Source: Thalassotalea nanhaiensis (GTDB lineage: Bacteria > Pseudomonadota > Gammaproteobacteria > Enterobacterales > Alteromonadaceae). From it: a stretch of DNA of 64,000 nt. Below the pieces are notes generated by a model, which was not told the DNA's origin, ran no database searches, and worked only from the letters and a program-made list of their open reading frames with translations. Location of the stretch: assembly GCF_031583575.1 (NCBI RefSeq), contig NZ_CP134146.1:2976001-3040000 (forward strand), written 5' to 3'. This document shows positions 8,544 through 21,359 of the stretch, piece after piece (position 1 is the first letter of the stretch; the number at the start of each line of letters is the position of its first letter). The position numbers and the translations under genes are program-made.

Positions 8544-8626
8544 GGCAATTCTAAGTTAATTCATCCTTGAATTAGACAGAATTTCAGCCATCCTTGGCAA
8601 TTCTAAGTTAATTCATCCTTGAATTA
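8544..8626 (-). repeat. Dispersed repeat family 2, tandem pair with CAAGGATG hairpins
   Basis: An exact 31-bp direct repeat occurs at 8544-8574 and 8596-8626, a period of 52 bp. On the - strand each copy holds a perfect hairpin, TAATTCA-AGGA-TGAATTA (8557-8574 and 8609-8626). Between them lies GCCA-AGGA-TGGC (8587-8598). The exonuclease and adk, both on the - strand, flank it, so it would lie in any readthrough transcript with AGGA in the loops. Confidence 0.85.
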
Positions 8627-8633
8627 AACAAAT

Positions 8634-16885: not shown

Positions 16886-17284
16886 CTATTCACCGCACTT
16901 GCTTTCTTTTGACTTAGCTTTGCCTTCACCACATTTGCCTTCGCCGCATTTGCCTTTGGCTTTAGCTTTGCCTTCACCACATTTACCTTCGCCGCATTTG
17001 CCTTTGGCTTTAGCTTTGCCTTCGCCACATTTGCCTTCGCCACATTTGCCTTCGCCGCATTTGCCTTTGGCTTTAGCTTTACCTTCACCACACTTGCCTT
17101 CGCCACACTTACCTTCACCGCACTTGCCTTCTTTTTTGGCTTTTTCACCATCAAAGTCAGCAGACGCGACAACATTTTGAGCTTCAAATGGATTAGCTTC
17201 GGCTTTAGCCGGCAAGCTTGCAAATACTGTCAACATCAGAGCGCTTAAGGCTGCTGTTAATAAATAGTTCTTATATAATTTCAT
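16886..17284 (-). CDS. Exported EGKCG-repeat protein, HvfA/bufferin-like candidate RiPP precursor
   Basis: This 132-residue protein has a Sec signal peptide (MKLYKN, hydrophobic core, cleavage likely after AKA at 26-28) and a short linker. Residues about 54-132 are almost only E, G, K, C, A and S, with seven EGKCG units alternating with EGKAKAKGKCG. All 11 Cys lie in KCG. EGKCG repeats after a signal peptide mark HvfA-type precursors, in which a DUF692/MNIO enzyme with a partner modifies Cys to bind copper. No DUF692 or DUF2063 gene is in the window, so modification is unproven. AGGAAG precedes the ATG. Other frames over the repeat are also open but have no export signal. Confidence 0.8.
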   Translation of the reverse strand: MKLYKNYLLTAALSALMLTVFASLPAKAEANPFEAQNVVASADFDGEKAKKEGKCGEGKCGEGKCGEGKAKAKGKCGEGKCGEGKCGEGKAKAKGKCGEGKCGEGKAKAKGKCGEGKCGEGKAKSKESKCGE

Positions 17285-17835: not shown

Positions 17836-18998
17836 TTTAGTTAGCTCCTTAATTTTTTACTAGTTTAAATACGTTACAACTCCAAACTGAGAGGTATAGC
17901 CTTACAGTAATGTATTGGCTGTTTTTATTCTGTAAATTCAGGTACTTTCATTTACATTACTTGAACGATAAGCAGAAATAATAGCGGCAGTGCTAGTCCA
18001 ACGTTAGTGTTCCATACCAATAAAGTCCGCATTCTAGATAAATTCCTTAGACACGTTTTATAACACTGCCAGTCATCTCATTTAGTCGGGGATTATTGAG
18101 TAAGGGAAGTCTCTTAAATTCCATTTAATTGAGATTTAGTTCATTTCAGTGAACATTAAAAGTAAAAGACACGTAGGGGATTTTGTCAAACCAGAAAACC
18201 TTAAAAAATGTATTTTTTACAGAACAAAATGACAAACTTTTGAAATAAAACAATTTTATTTTTTAAGTTTAAATTCTCTGGAAATTTAAAATTTACAGCT
18301 TTGCTCCGGCCCTATTTTCATAAAAAATATTTAGTCATTTTATTACCCGTGCGTGATAGTTCATTATGGAAAAAATGTTAATTATTTTTTCTTATATAAA
18401 ACGCTTTTTTATAACAAAATAAATTTTGCATGATGATAATTTTTGACTACGCTTTAGATATAAATTTGCAGCACAGTAGATTTATAACATCATGCAGAAA
18501 TTAAGTGTATTCAAGGGTTAAGGAAACCCAGAATTCATTACTTGAAACTAAAACTTATTGTTTTAAAAAGGTTTTTGCATGGGGGTTATTAATAACAATA
18601 CATTAGCTAAGGATAGACTCATGGAAAGTATCAGCACATTCCTATTGTTAAATGCCACAATTAACACTCAAATTTTCAAGCTCATTTCAACACAATTGAA
18701 CCTGATATCTCTAGGTTATCTACTGCCTATGAATTTGACTTACAAGCCAGTAACTTTCGTTCAACATTGTAACCTCCAGCTTTCTGGATAGATCTTAAAC
18801 TCATTAAATTGATATAAATATTTTGGAGTAAAACCATTAAAACGATGGCTCCAGATCTTTATACCGTTAACTGTTCTTAAGTTTAATTACTGCAGGTTAT
18901 TAACCCTGTAAATATAAAATTATAATCAGATAACATTCAAGGGAGTTATACGTTTACTCTAAGTACTTTTTACAATTTGAAAATATCAATTTCGTAAA
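17836..18998. other. AT-rich gene-poor stretch
   Basis: I find no convincing gene over about 1.16 kb. The base composition is poorer in GC than the flanks. One 70-codon frame at 18579 has a fair AAAAAGG seven bases before its ATG, but no recognisable protein character. One hairpin, GGGTT-AAGGA-AACCC (18515-18529), and a weak CTA-AGGA-TAG (18607-18616) resemble the AGGA hairpins clustered further right, so the transcript carrying those could begin in here. Confidence 0.5.
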
Positions 18999-19029
18999 AC
19001 AATTAGTCGTTTGTACTAGCACTAATTGT
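18999..19029. promoter_or_regulatory. Inverted repeat before the AGGA-hairpin cluster
   Basis: ACAATTAGT and ACTAATTGT form a perfect 9-bp inverted repeat with a 13-base spacer, ending 9 bases before the first AGGA hairpin. It may be an operator for a dimeric regulator or the first stem of the RNA. Confidence 0.45.
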
Positions 19030-19037
19030 CTCGAAAA

Positions 19038-19492
19038 AAGTTAAAGGATTAACTTGAGAATATGGACAATCCAAAGGAATTGGATTTTGCAGGATGCATA
19101 AGGAAGATAATGGCCAAGGAAGGCTAGAACCAATTTGATCACGTGAGCTCATTTACATGTAGAAAATGAGCAGTTATGTGACAACCTGGTATAAACAATG
19201 GAAGCGCCGAGTATTGTACTTACGGCTTTACTCGAGTAGGCCAGCATATAACGCATTAGTGTTGCTGTAGTGCCGCTCTAGTCAGGATGACGAAGTAGTT
19301 TGAGTACTTGAAAACCTTGAAGGATCAAAGTTTTCAAGGGAGATTTAAGAGGAGTATTACTCATAAACAACAGATAAATTATTTTAACAGGAGTGAAATA
19401 ATTCATAGCTTTGTTTATGAGGTGCCTCTTACCTTTCTTCCGCAGGTGAGTTTTCAGTAACAAAATTTGATTTGAACCCGCAAAGGAATTGC
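19038..19492 (+). ncRNA. Candidate Csr/Rsm-type RNA or CsrA-regulated leader (AGGA hairpin cluster)
   Basis: Eight hairpins on the + strand put AGGA in the loop: AAGTTAA-AGGA-TTAACTT (19038-19055), AATCCAA-AGGAA-TTGGATT (19068-19086), TGC-AGGAT-GCA (19088-19098), TGGCC-AAGGAA-GGCTA (19111-19126), GTC-AGGAT-GAC (19281-19291), a long two-tier hairpin (19307-19338), a 62-base two-tier hairpin (19360-19421) and GCAA-AGGAA-TTGC (19480-19492). There are about 14 GGA against 2 TCC. Such loops are the binding sites of CsrA/RsmA in CsrB-type RNAs. No clear terminator precedes the RAYT, so this may instead be its long leader; the last hairpin contains the RAYT Shine-Dalgarno. Confidence 0.55.
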
Positions 19493-19494
19493 AT

Positions 19495-20223
19495 ATGCCT
19501 AGAAAACCAAGACTTTATTTAGCAGATCAAACATTTCATATTTCTATAAGTGTTAATAATCAACAGAGATGCTTTTATTGTACTACCGATTATCAATATT
19601 ATTCACTATTACTCAGCCAAGGACTGCACAAATATAAGGTCCTATTGCACGCTTTTGTCTTAATGGAGACTCAGATTCAATTATTAATAACACCGAGTTG
19701 CGTTAAAGGTATTGCTCGACTTATTCAATATATATCAAGTAATTACGTTAGGTATATCAATAGAAAATACCACCGTAGTGGATCTGTATTTCAAGGTAGG
19801 CATAAAGCGAGTATTATCGATGCGGATAATTATTTATTAGCGTGTATGAGATTTATAGAGTCTGAGCCGCTAACCAAAGGAGTAGCTTCTCACCCTGCAC
19901 AATATCCATACTCTAGTTACAGACAAAATGCAGTATCCCAACGGATATCACCGCCTGAGGTGACAGTTAGTCCGCATAGCCAATACCTGCATTTAGGCCA
20001 TAATTTACTGAGCATAAAAAGTAACTACCGAAAACTATTTTTGCATCGCAGCCAAACATATCTCGACACATTAATCATTGAGCGACTAATACACAATTTT
20101 CCTATCGGTGATCAATTCTTTATTAAAAAGGTAGAAGCCTTGCATCAGGTAACGTTCAAAAAGATGAAACCGGGCAGACCGTCAAAGCCAGTGAAGCTGA
20201 TGCTACCCGTGATATTTTGTTAA
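19495..20223 (+). CDS. REP-associated tyrosine transposase (RAYT, Y1_Tnp) with substituted HUH motif
   Basis: This 242-residue protein has the RAYT layout: MPRKPR start, HAFVLM segment, then YISSNYVRYIN, SGSVFQGRHKASIIDADNYL, MRFIESEP, and the C-terminal GD-F and KPGRPSKP tail. The motif normally reading NHVHLL reads TQIQLL, so both metal-binding His are Gln (60 and 62). Catalysis by the usual route should be lost, yet the frame is intact, which suggests domestication or very recent decay. The ATG at 19495 is chosen because AAAGGA lies 7 bases upstream. Family 2 REP-like repeats lie 71 bp beyond the stop, as expected of a RAYT. Confidence 0.85.
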   Translation: MPRKPRLYLADQTFHISISVNNQQRCFYCTTDYQYYSLLLSQGLHKYKVLLHAFVLMETQIQLLITPSCVKGIARLIQYISSNYVRYINRKYHRSGSVFQGRHKASIIDADNYLLACMRFIESEPLTKGVASHPAQYPYSSYRQNAVSQRISPPEVTVSPHSQYLHLGHNLLSIKSNYRKLFLHRSQTYLDTLIIERLIHNFPIGDQFFIKKVEALHQVTFKKMKPGRPSKPVKLMLPVIFC

Positions 20224-20293
20224 AACCAACAGTTACTATAGCTTACAATAAATACTGAATGCGGTGAGCGCATAGATGTTAAGAAACGAGCTA

Positions 20294-20380
20294 TGGCATT
20301 TCTGCATATAGTTCATCCCTGAACAAAACAGAAATACGCCTTCCCTGGCATTTCTGCATATAGTTCATCCCTGAACAAAA
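20294..20380 (-). repeat. Dispersed repeat family 2, tandem pair with CAGGGATG hairpins
   Basis: An exact 35-bp direct repeat occurs at 20294-20328 and 20346-20380, with the same 52-bp period as the pair at 8544-8626. On the - strand each copy has GTTCA-GGGA-TGAAC, and between them lies GCC-AGGGAA-GGC (20338-20349). The pair lies between the RAYT (+) and galU (-), just past the galU terminator, and is a good candidate for the RAYT's own REP/BIME target. Confidence 0.85.
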
Positions 20381-20405
20381 AAGGATCTGTGATACAGATC
20401 CTTTT
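20379..20405. terminator. Terminator of galU
   Basis: AAAAGGATCTGT-GAT-ACAGATCCTTTT is a perfect 12-bp stem with T runs on both strands. It serves galU on the - strand and could also stop transcription from the RAYT side. Confidence 0.9.
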
Positions 20406-20456
20406 AATTATTGAGCGAATATAAAAAGTAGTTAAATACGTTTATAACCGTTAAAT

Positions 20457-21359
20457 TTATAAGCTATTTATATACGCTTTAAATTCTTCAGCTAATTCAG
20501 GGTGACGTAAACCGTACTCTACATTCGCTTTTAAATAGCCAAGTTTAGTACCACAATCGTGAGATTTACCTGTCATATGAAACGCTTCAACAGTTTCAAT
20601 ATCCATTAATTTAGCAATTGCATCGGTAAGTTGAATTTCATCCCCTGCACCTGGCATGGTTTTCTCAAGCAACGCCCAAATTTCGTTCGATAGAACATAG
20701 CGACCAACCACGGCTAAGTTCGATGGAGCTTCTTCCTGTGGTGGTTTTTCTACTATTTCGGTCATTGGACAAGACTCACCAGGTAACACTGCCTTACCGC
20801 CACAATCAACTACTCCGTAGCTGCTAACTAATTCCATAGGTACTGGTTCTACCATGATTTGACTGGCTTTAGATTCTTCATAACGAGTCAGCATAGCTGA
20901 CAGGTTTTCTGTCTGTAGATCTGATGCAGCATCATCAATTAATACATCAGGTAAGACAACAACAAATGGGTCATCACCAATTATTGGCTTTGCCTTTAAA
21001 ACCGCATGCCCCAGCCCTTTGGCCTCGCCTTGGCGTACATGCATAATAGTGACGTCACGAGGGCAAATAGCTTGTATTTCATCAAGTAACTGGCGTTTTA
21101 CTCGTTTCTCAAGAGTTGTCTCAAGCTCAAAAGATTTATCGAAATGGTTTTCGATAGCATTTTTAGACGAATGAGTAACTAAAACAATTTCTTTAATTCC
21201 CGCAGCAATACACTCATTTACTATGTATTGAATTAACGGTTTATCAACCACTGGCAGCATCTCTTTTGGGATAGCCTTTGTAGCAGGTAGCATTCTTGTA
21301 CCTAAACCAGCAACAGGAATAACAGCCTTTTTAATGGCCGAGTTTTTAGATAATGGCAA
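20457..21359 (-). CDS. galU: UTP--glucose-1-phosphate uridylyltransferase
   Basis: This 300-residue enzyme makes UDP-glucose from UTP and glucose 1-phosphate for LPS, capsule and osmoprotectant synthesis. The N-terminal nucleotidyltransferase motif [18 protein letters not shown] (18-35) is present, with the VVLPDVLID and EIVEKP segments and an intact C-terminus. Length matches the family. It is monocistronic with its own terminator. Together with the epimerase at 23525-24604 it could feed surface polysaccharide synthesis. Confidence 0.96.

Follow-up and report, generated by a model that had tools for sequence, protein, structure and literature searches.

The window (the whole 64,000-nt stretch of DNA that was analysed, G000:C1:2976001-3040000 of the source genome G000, Thalassotalea nanhaiensis) contains an array of hairpins with GGA in the loop, followed at once by a gene for a protein of the RAYT clade. 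The features of the locus are listed below, with loop letters in square brackets.

19000-19029, + strand: inverted repeat CAATTAGT..ACTAATTG immediately 5' of the array, read from the printed sequence
19035-19125, + strand: four-hairpin 5' module, matched by covariance model R1
19038-19055, + strand: hairpin H1, AAGTTAA[AGGA]TTAACTT, from the hairpin scan; covarying stem, nine aligned rows including its own
19068-19086, + strand: hairpin H2, AATCCAA[AGGAA]TTGGATT, from the hairpin scan; eight distinct rows
19088-19098, + strand: hairpin H3, TGCA[GGA]TGCA (CAGGATG), from the hairpin scan and comparison with relatives
19111-19126, + strand: hairpin H4, TGGCC[AAGGAA]GGCTA, from the hairpin scan and comparison with relatives
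19281-19291, + strand: hairpin H5, GTCA[GGA]TGAC (CAGGATG), from the hairpin scan; GTCA[AGGA]TGAC in relative G005
19307-19338, + strand: hairpin H6 with an AGGA loop, arms 19307-19320 and 19325-19338, core 19317-19328
19377-19403, + strand: hairpin H7, AATTATTTTA[ACAGGAG]TGAAATAATT, from the hairpin scan; also in relative G010
19480-19492, + strand: Shine-Dalgarno hairpin GCAA[AGGAA]TTGC, directly 5' of the ATG at 19495
19495-20223 (stop included), + strand: RAYT-clade protein of 242 aa, with Q/Q at HUH positions 60/62 and F at Tyr position 120
19672-19680, + strand: codons 60-62 (Q-I-Q), where the alignment puts the HUH motif
19852-19854, + strand: codon 120 (F), where the profile alignment puts the catalytic Tyr (4er8 residue 115)

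The hairpin array and its composition

The initial annotation had described at least eight + strand hairpins of the AGGA type and some 14 GGA against 2 TCC in 455 bases, and both descriptions hold. The + strand of 19038-19492 has exactly 14 GGA and 2 TCC in its 455 nt, and a scan for GGA-loop hairpins with stems of 4 bp or more gave nine on this strand and a single one on the - strand. The nine include two alternative folds of a single stretch, which leaves eight independent hairpins. None of 1000 dinucleotide shuffles reached nine (mean 2.24, sd 1.39, maximum 8). When the window was scanned on both strands with a sliding frame of 455 nt, the top counts (8) overlapped the array and the best count elsewhere was 5. 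The motif CAGGATG occurs twice, at 19090 and 19283, as had been noted; the SELEX consensus of CsrA is RUACARGGAUGU, and the genome encodes a CsrA of 64 aa. Perfect 7-bp stems are present too, but 'several' was a generous word for the two that we counted (19038-19055 and 19068-19086); the stem at 19377-19403 has 10 bp including one G-U.

The folding check proposed with the initial annotation gave a z-score of -4.27 for 19000-19520, but the array hairpins compete with other pairings in the full ensemble. At 37 C, six of the nine hairpins of the source genome have p > 0.5 and the Shine-Dalgarno hairpin has p = 0.04.

We found no convincing protein gene within the array, as had been stated: the overlapping open reading frames of at least 40 aa measure 49-61 aa, and nothing supporting them as genes was seen. 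The same agreement extends to the terminator: a scan of 18300-20500 found no terminator-like site on the + strand, including between the array and the gene. A sigma-70 scan gave no convincing promoter (5 sites versus 9.4 in shuffles). The inverted repeat ahead of the array is a possible promoter or operator. GGA-less dyads ahead of H1 were also seen by eye in G005, G009 and G004, and the dyad loops of G009 and G004 have TTACCCCTTTTCGA in common.

Conservation of the array in the genus

Of 59 genomes searched at the protein level (E <= 1e-8), the source genome included, 24 have the gene or a related one. Plain nucleotide matches were strong in only two relatives, G010 and G005, so the leaders of the others had to be located by anchoring on the protein. 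The gene and an upstream array occur together in 11 of the 15 genus genomes (G000, G010, G005, G006, G011, G008, G009, G014, G004, G002 and G012), with a strong array in ten and a weak one in one. The leaders are 237-720 nt long; ten hold 7-10 hairpins and that of G014 holds 4. Among 300 shuffles of each leader, the observed count was reached by none in G000, G010, G006, G011, G008 and G009, by 1 in G005, 2 each in G004 and G012, 5 in G002 and 30 in G014. As a control, the 700-nt regions ahead of 133 other open reading frames (taken from the array loci and the window, with genes of the source locus counted twice) averaged 1.30 hairpins with a maximum of 5; nine of the 133 reached the four hairpins of G014.

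No RAYT match at E <= 1e-8 was found in the genus members G001, G003 (78% complete) and G013, and the sole match in G007 has an intact HUH motif. At 40 loci of other RAYTs (a set of 19, in which some matches lack a start codon at their beginning, and a set of 21, in which one locus is too short) there is no array of this kind; the smallest shuffle tail is 7/200 (L146). The sole named relatives from outside were a fragment from a Rhodocyclaceae MAG (L063) and a Nitrosomonas nitrosa gene (L062), which has three GGA hairpins upstream but none at its start.

The locus is also largely syntenic. A galU neighbor and usp-type genes (named by Pfam) each accompany the gene in 9 of 11 genomes, and genes that we take to be dnaX- and apt-like lie upstream in 7 of 11, with a different upstream gene pair in G006, G011, G009 and G004. 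A MITE-like insertion with ACCAATTTGA...TTGGTAT-type ends was seen by eye inside the leader at window positions 19129-19192; it is also present in the G010 and G006 leaders, and its state differs among relatives.

Conservation of the stems and loops in relatives had been named as the test of the initial annotation, and the four hairpins of the 5' module (H1-H4) passed it: their order and GGA loops are conserved, and the two arms of the stems change together, with compensatory changes. For example, the H1 arms read AAGTTAA/TTAACTT, CATGTTGA/TTAACATG, AAACGTTA/TAACGTTT, AAAGGCTGA/TCAGCTTTT or GTATTGTT/AACAATAC. Among the 11 genomes, H2 could be laid out for nine, H3 for eight and H4 for nine; G002 has none of H1-H4 in this form. 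In H1 (nine sequences), 84.3% of the cells pair compared with 73.7% after shuffling, and covariation is 0.350 compared with 0.161 (0 of 500 shuffles as high for either). Five H1 pairs changed on both sides (44/500 shuffles as high) and there were nine further pair types (127/500). In H2 (eight distinct rows), the values are 87.3% versus 74.2% and 0.423 versus 0.208 (1/500 for each); its two-sided changes (453/500) and pair types (358/500) do not exceed the shuffles. The aligned relatives share descent, and these H1 and H2 shuffle counts are not probabilities. Sliding the pairing partners lowered all five measures in H1 and H2 alike.

We built a covariance model (R1) from ten modules and searched 97 genomes. 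R1 matched one copy in each of ten genomes, always upstream of the catalytically dead RAYT clade described below, and these ten matches are the model's own building rows. There was no match in G002, in the genus members lacking the gene or in other genera among the 97 genomes (a search of more than 40 genomes uses stricter filters). Nor was any copy of the module found away from the gene in these genomes, with the proviso that stricter filters can lose weak matches. A second model (R2), built without G008, G012, G014 and G002, found the module at the right place in G008 (E 1.1e-6), G014 (0.0067) and G012 (0.014), missed the G002 leader and gave nothing at E <= 1 in 21 loci of other RAYTs. R2 also picked the CsrB-type RNA of the genome (E 3.3e-4), GGA-loop repeats (0.004-0.09) and a second upstream place in G008 (0.039). 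Thus, the model recognizes arrays of GGA hairpins in general and the argument rests on the linkage of module and gene, not on score alone.

The last hairpin holds the Shine-Dalgarno sequence of the downstream gene, as the initial annotation had observed. Eight of the 11 clade members have a Shine-Dalgarno hairpin of 4 bp or more; G009 and G012 lack one, and that of G014 has 3 bp. Hairpins of 4 bp or more also occur at 11 of the 21 other RAYT loci with GGA before the start (L039, L040, L041, L044, L146, L150, L151, L152, L154, L164 and L166; 11 further loci lack the GGA) and in 13 of 51 other open reading frames with GGA before the start. The predicted probability of the hairpin is 0.78-0.91 in G010, G006, G011 and G008. 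It is not the favored fold at 37 C in the source genome (0.04), G004 (0.07), G005 (0.18) or G002 (0.30).

A RAYT clade predicted to be catalytically dead

The downstream gene had been called a RAYT, and its family and fold agree with that name. The active site does not. The protein scores 23.5 bits with the Pfam Y1_Tnp model (cut-off 23), a domain found in 21 of 22 alignment members, and 43.8 bits with the NCBIfam RAYT model (cut-off 80), which an HUH-intact relative (L145, 65.7) likewise fails to reach. A direct sequence search of the PDB returned one irrelevant weak match, and a profile of the relatives reached RAYT structures. The AlphaFold model (pLDDT 87.7, pTM 0.86) has its best PDB fold match in 4er8, a RAYT bound to a REP hairpin (E 1.6e-8; TM 0.77 by target length and 0.54 by query length; rmsd 6.3).

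We aligned 42 of 52 RAYT loci; left out were L151 (early stop), L153 (contig edge) and eight whose matches lack an initial start codon. All 31 aligned RAYTs outside the clade retain both HUH histidines and the Tyr, whereas all 11 array-bearing genes have lost at least one histidine and five of them (G000, G008, G014, G002 and G012) have lost both. Six of the 11 have F or H instead of the catalytic Tyr; the Tyr column was placed by profile alignment to 4er8, with residue 115 by our own count. Y115F is named as a catalytic mutant in passages of PMC8266576. The 11 genes form one clade (99/99), within which G002 and G012 sit on long branches with unsure placement. An intact, mobile RAYT is ruled out by the broken HUH motif in the alignment and by the largely kept neighbors.

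The gene is nevertheless under purifying selection, as shown by dN/dS values of about 0.1 in close pairs (0.09 for G000-G010 and G000-G005, 0.11 for G010-G005 and 0.13 for G006-G011). The value is 0.23 for G000-G006, and the G009-G004 comparison is saturated. Residues invariant in ten proteins (G002 left out) include R3, K4, R6, R102, K104 and a K-x-GRP-x-K tail, which is absent from the last 45 residues of G002. Purifying selection, the basic N-terminal residues and the tail in 10 of 11 proteins make a non-cutting role in nucleic-acid binding the most likely one for the predicted protein. Compared with RAYT/TnpA-REP proteins (4er8; parts of PMC8266576), the protein shares the predicted fold and the conserved core. 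The clade differs from them in its broken HUH motif (11/11), the loss of the Tyr (6/11), the largely syntenic locus and the Csr-type leader. The loss of the HUH motif, low dN/dS, synteny and RAYT-like fold suggest that the leader and a dead, exapted RAYT travel together.

Csr-type control and alternative readings

The stretch 19038-19492 is probably a 5' leader of about 460 nt, counted from the first hairpin, belonging to the gene at 19495-20223 and binding CsrA at multiple sites. The initial annotation had offered an unusually long CsrA-controlled leader as one of two candidates, and the conservation, covariation and Shine-Dalgarno hairpin favor it. Array and gene would be transcribed as one mRNA. 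The 5' cluster of four GGA-loop hairpins, the unpaired GGAs and the GGA hairpins downstream could load several CsrA dimers. The last hairpin would present the Shine-Dalgarno sequence as an AGGA in its loop, where bound CsrA would keep ribosomes off and repress translation. A rise in CsrB-type RNA would then release CsrA from the leader, and titration of CsrA by the leader mRNA may add to this control in cis.

It is possible, if somewhat doubtful, that the titration is the main role and the control of the dead RAYT secondary, with the leader acting in trans as an mRNA sponge; this reading overlaps with the cis-acting leader. The 7-10 GGA hairpins in ten leaders are seemingly more than repression in cis needs, the Shine-Dalgarno hairpin is weak or absent in several leaders, and the leaders of flaA and fimAICDHF are described as titrating CsrA in parts of PMC4894983. 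On the other hand, the four genus genomes examined already have CsrB-type RNAs elsewhere, and the purifying selection in close pairs indicates that the gene does more than carry the leader.

The other candidate of the initial annotation, a Csr-sequestering RNA, fares worse as a gene type. Like CsrB and RsmZ (RF00018, RF00166), the leader is rich in GGA-loop hairpins separated by unpaired GGAs. Unlike them, it lacks a terminator by scan, scores below the Rfam cut-off, is continuous with a gene and shares its genome with a separate CsrB-type RNA. The suggested Rfam search gave no CsrB or RsmZ match over the cut-off in the window, the source genome or any of the 15 genus genomes, and we rejected the family label for the array. 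RsmZ scored 19.6 bits on the window (cut-off 44; E 0.097). Weak matches fell on the leaders of G011 (RsmZ 2.7e-4, CsrB 0.003), G006 (RsmZ 5.0e-4, CsrB 3.0e-4) and G002 (RsmZ 0.011). The cut-off is a weak test, because the CsrB-type RNAs of the genus are themselves below it or missed.

An intrinsic terminator was found in none of the 11 leaders and, by the same scan, in all four CsrB-type RNAs. The CsrB-type RNA of the source genome lies at about G000:C1:2705941-2706256 on the - strand (L141, about 1942-2257, -) and has ten GGA hairpins and a terminator. Further CsrB-type RNAs with terminators are present in G011, G014 and G006. The CsrB-type RNAs beyond L141 are at L142, L143 and L144, with Rfam CsrB scores below the cut-off or no match; L142 and L143 adjoin a gene that is presumably yihI-like. 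We also scored a UvrY/GacA box out of 12 positions. The leaders reached 7-9, the same as 220 shuffles (7-10), and a box near -185 of the CsrB-type RNAs reached 10 in the source genome and 11 in G006 (3 of 220 shuffles reach 10). The CsrB-type RNAs of G011 and G014 reached only 8. The test is weak, since the leaders score no differently from shuffles.

The array is probably not the gene of a free CsrB/RsmZ-type sRNA, and an upstream RNA of this kind with a RAYT transcribed on its own seems unlikely. The weak Rfam matches agree with it, as does the G010 leader, whose first hairpin lies some 710 nt ahead of the gene. The lack of any match over the cut-off in 15 genomes, the lack of terminators in the leaders, a module never found away from the gene in 97 genomes and the terminator-bearing CsrB-type RNAs elsewhere speak against it.

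We give similarly little weight to the possibility that the array acts as DNA, with REP-like hairpins bound by the RAYT as single strands in a REPtron relic or autoregulatory operator. RAYTs bind REP hairpins, which border RAYT genes (parts of PMC8266576), and GGA-loop repeats of the REP type do occur in the source genome. The - strand of the 96 nt that follow the gene matches 21 genomic places (L109-L129). The REP-type places in the window are 20290-20383 (-) and 8557-8627 (-), and two copies lie directly downstream of the dead RAYT gene, beyond the terminator of the convergent galU. The repeats have CA-N-GGA loops, with varying stems and a constant loop, and directly follow T tracts on the strand of the upstream gene; terminator stems ahead of them were seen by eye. 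We examined 17 of the 21 places, omitting four that overlap or are degraded. At least six T precede the first GGA hairpin within 12 nt in 13 of the 17, and the other four have five.

The loop letters separate the leaders from these repeats at -3 and -1 but not clearly at -2. We compared 43 REP hairpins, 74 hairpins of the 11 leaders and 27 hairpins of four CsrB-type RNAs. At -3, every REP has C, the leaders vary and the CsrB-type RNAs mostly have T or A. The frequency of A at -2 is 1.00, 0.70 and 0.33, respectively, and at -1 it is 0.16, 0.66 and 0.63. Leader loops thus agree with the CsrB-type RNAs of the genus and not with the REPs at -3 and -1, and are intermediate at -2, where the A-rich letter common to leaders and REPs fits the DNA reading. 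Other points against that reading are the differing stems within the leaders, the placement of nearly all GGAs on the mRNA strand (the Shine-Dalgarno sequence included) and the lack of a comparable array at the other RAYT loci.

T tracts followed by CANGGATG or CATCCNTG were counted on the reverse strand, because forward counts are inflated by overlapping T runs; the reverse counts look unaffected at the places listed. The pairs of counts (CANGGATG versus CATCCNTG) are 65 v 30 in G000, 28 v 13 in G010, 47 v 28 in G005, 35 v 26 in G006, 37 v 19 in G011, 33 v 15 in G002, 12 v 8 in G004, 16 v 14 in G012, 8 v 13 in G008, 12 v 13 in G009 and 6 v 11 in G014. Genomes without the dead RAYT gave 10 v 12 (G001), 12 v 7 (G003), 11 v 7 (G007) and 12 v 10 (G013). 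Only some genomes thus show an enrichment of GGA-loop repeats after T tracts. REP-type repeats are not expected to be mobilized by a dead RAYT, so their enzyme would be another one or extinct.

It is conceivable, at low odds, that the RAYT was exapted into the Csr circuit as a whole, with an mRNA that doubles as a sponge and a dead protein that still reads GGA-loop hairpins and so either competes with CsrA on RNA or marks the GGA hairpins directly behind intrinsic terminators; the ancestor of the protein was an enzyme that bound hairpins, and the genome's REP-type repeats have CA-N-GGA loops. Also unlikely is that intrinsic structure hides the Shine-Dalgarno sequence or slows ribosomes without CsrA, as for some transposases (control by 5' UTR structure is known, parts of PMC8450116), a reading that fits the Shine-Dalgarno hairpins at other RAYT loci but leaves unexplained why distal GGA loops are kept while stems vary.

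CsrA-controlled leaders and RAYTs (PMC8266576, PMC6006769, PMC3733652 and PMC8450116, each in part) are both well known, and a conserved Csr-type leader on a dead, selected RAYT clade is a link between them that appears to be new. As in the flaA leader of Campylobacter jejuni and the fimAICDHF leader of Salmonella (parts of PMC4894983), GGA hairpins lie here in the 5' leader of a protein gene. The flaA leader has two adjacent GGA hexaloops; here there are four to ten hairpins in 237-720 nt ahead of a transposase-derived gene. The Rsm proteins of Pseudomonas putida pull down regions adjacent to ISPpu8 (parts of PMC7937890), likewise an association of CsrA-family proteins with RNA beside a transposase and the nearest case found. 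It concerns another IS, and those parts describe no RAYT, array or conservation. Among the papers listed on RAYTs with CsrA or RsmA, on REP hairpins with CsrA and on CsrA with transposase leaders, titles and abstract openings name no Csr leader of a RAYT, and PMC9788540 does not contain RAYT as a whole word. The locus suggests that a retired mobile-element protein was reused under Csr (carbon-storage) control. Two questions can be tested on it: how a domesticated, non-cutting transposase earns its keep, and whether RAYT-borne hairpins can seed CsrA sites.

Two further observations concern the surroundings of the compared loci. Tandem intergenic arrays of GGA-loop hairpins, of GTGCAGGGATGCAC and CTGCATGGATGCAG types, occur at L095 (G012) and at L096 and L107 (G009). 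Near the locus, at window positions 16886-17284 on the - strand, lies a gene for a low-complexity protein with KGKCGEGK-type repeats, whose cluster has seven members across the compared loci.
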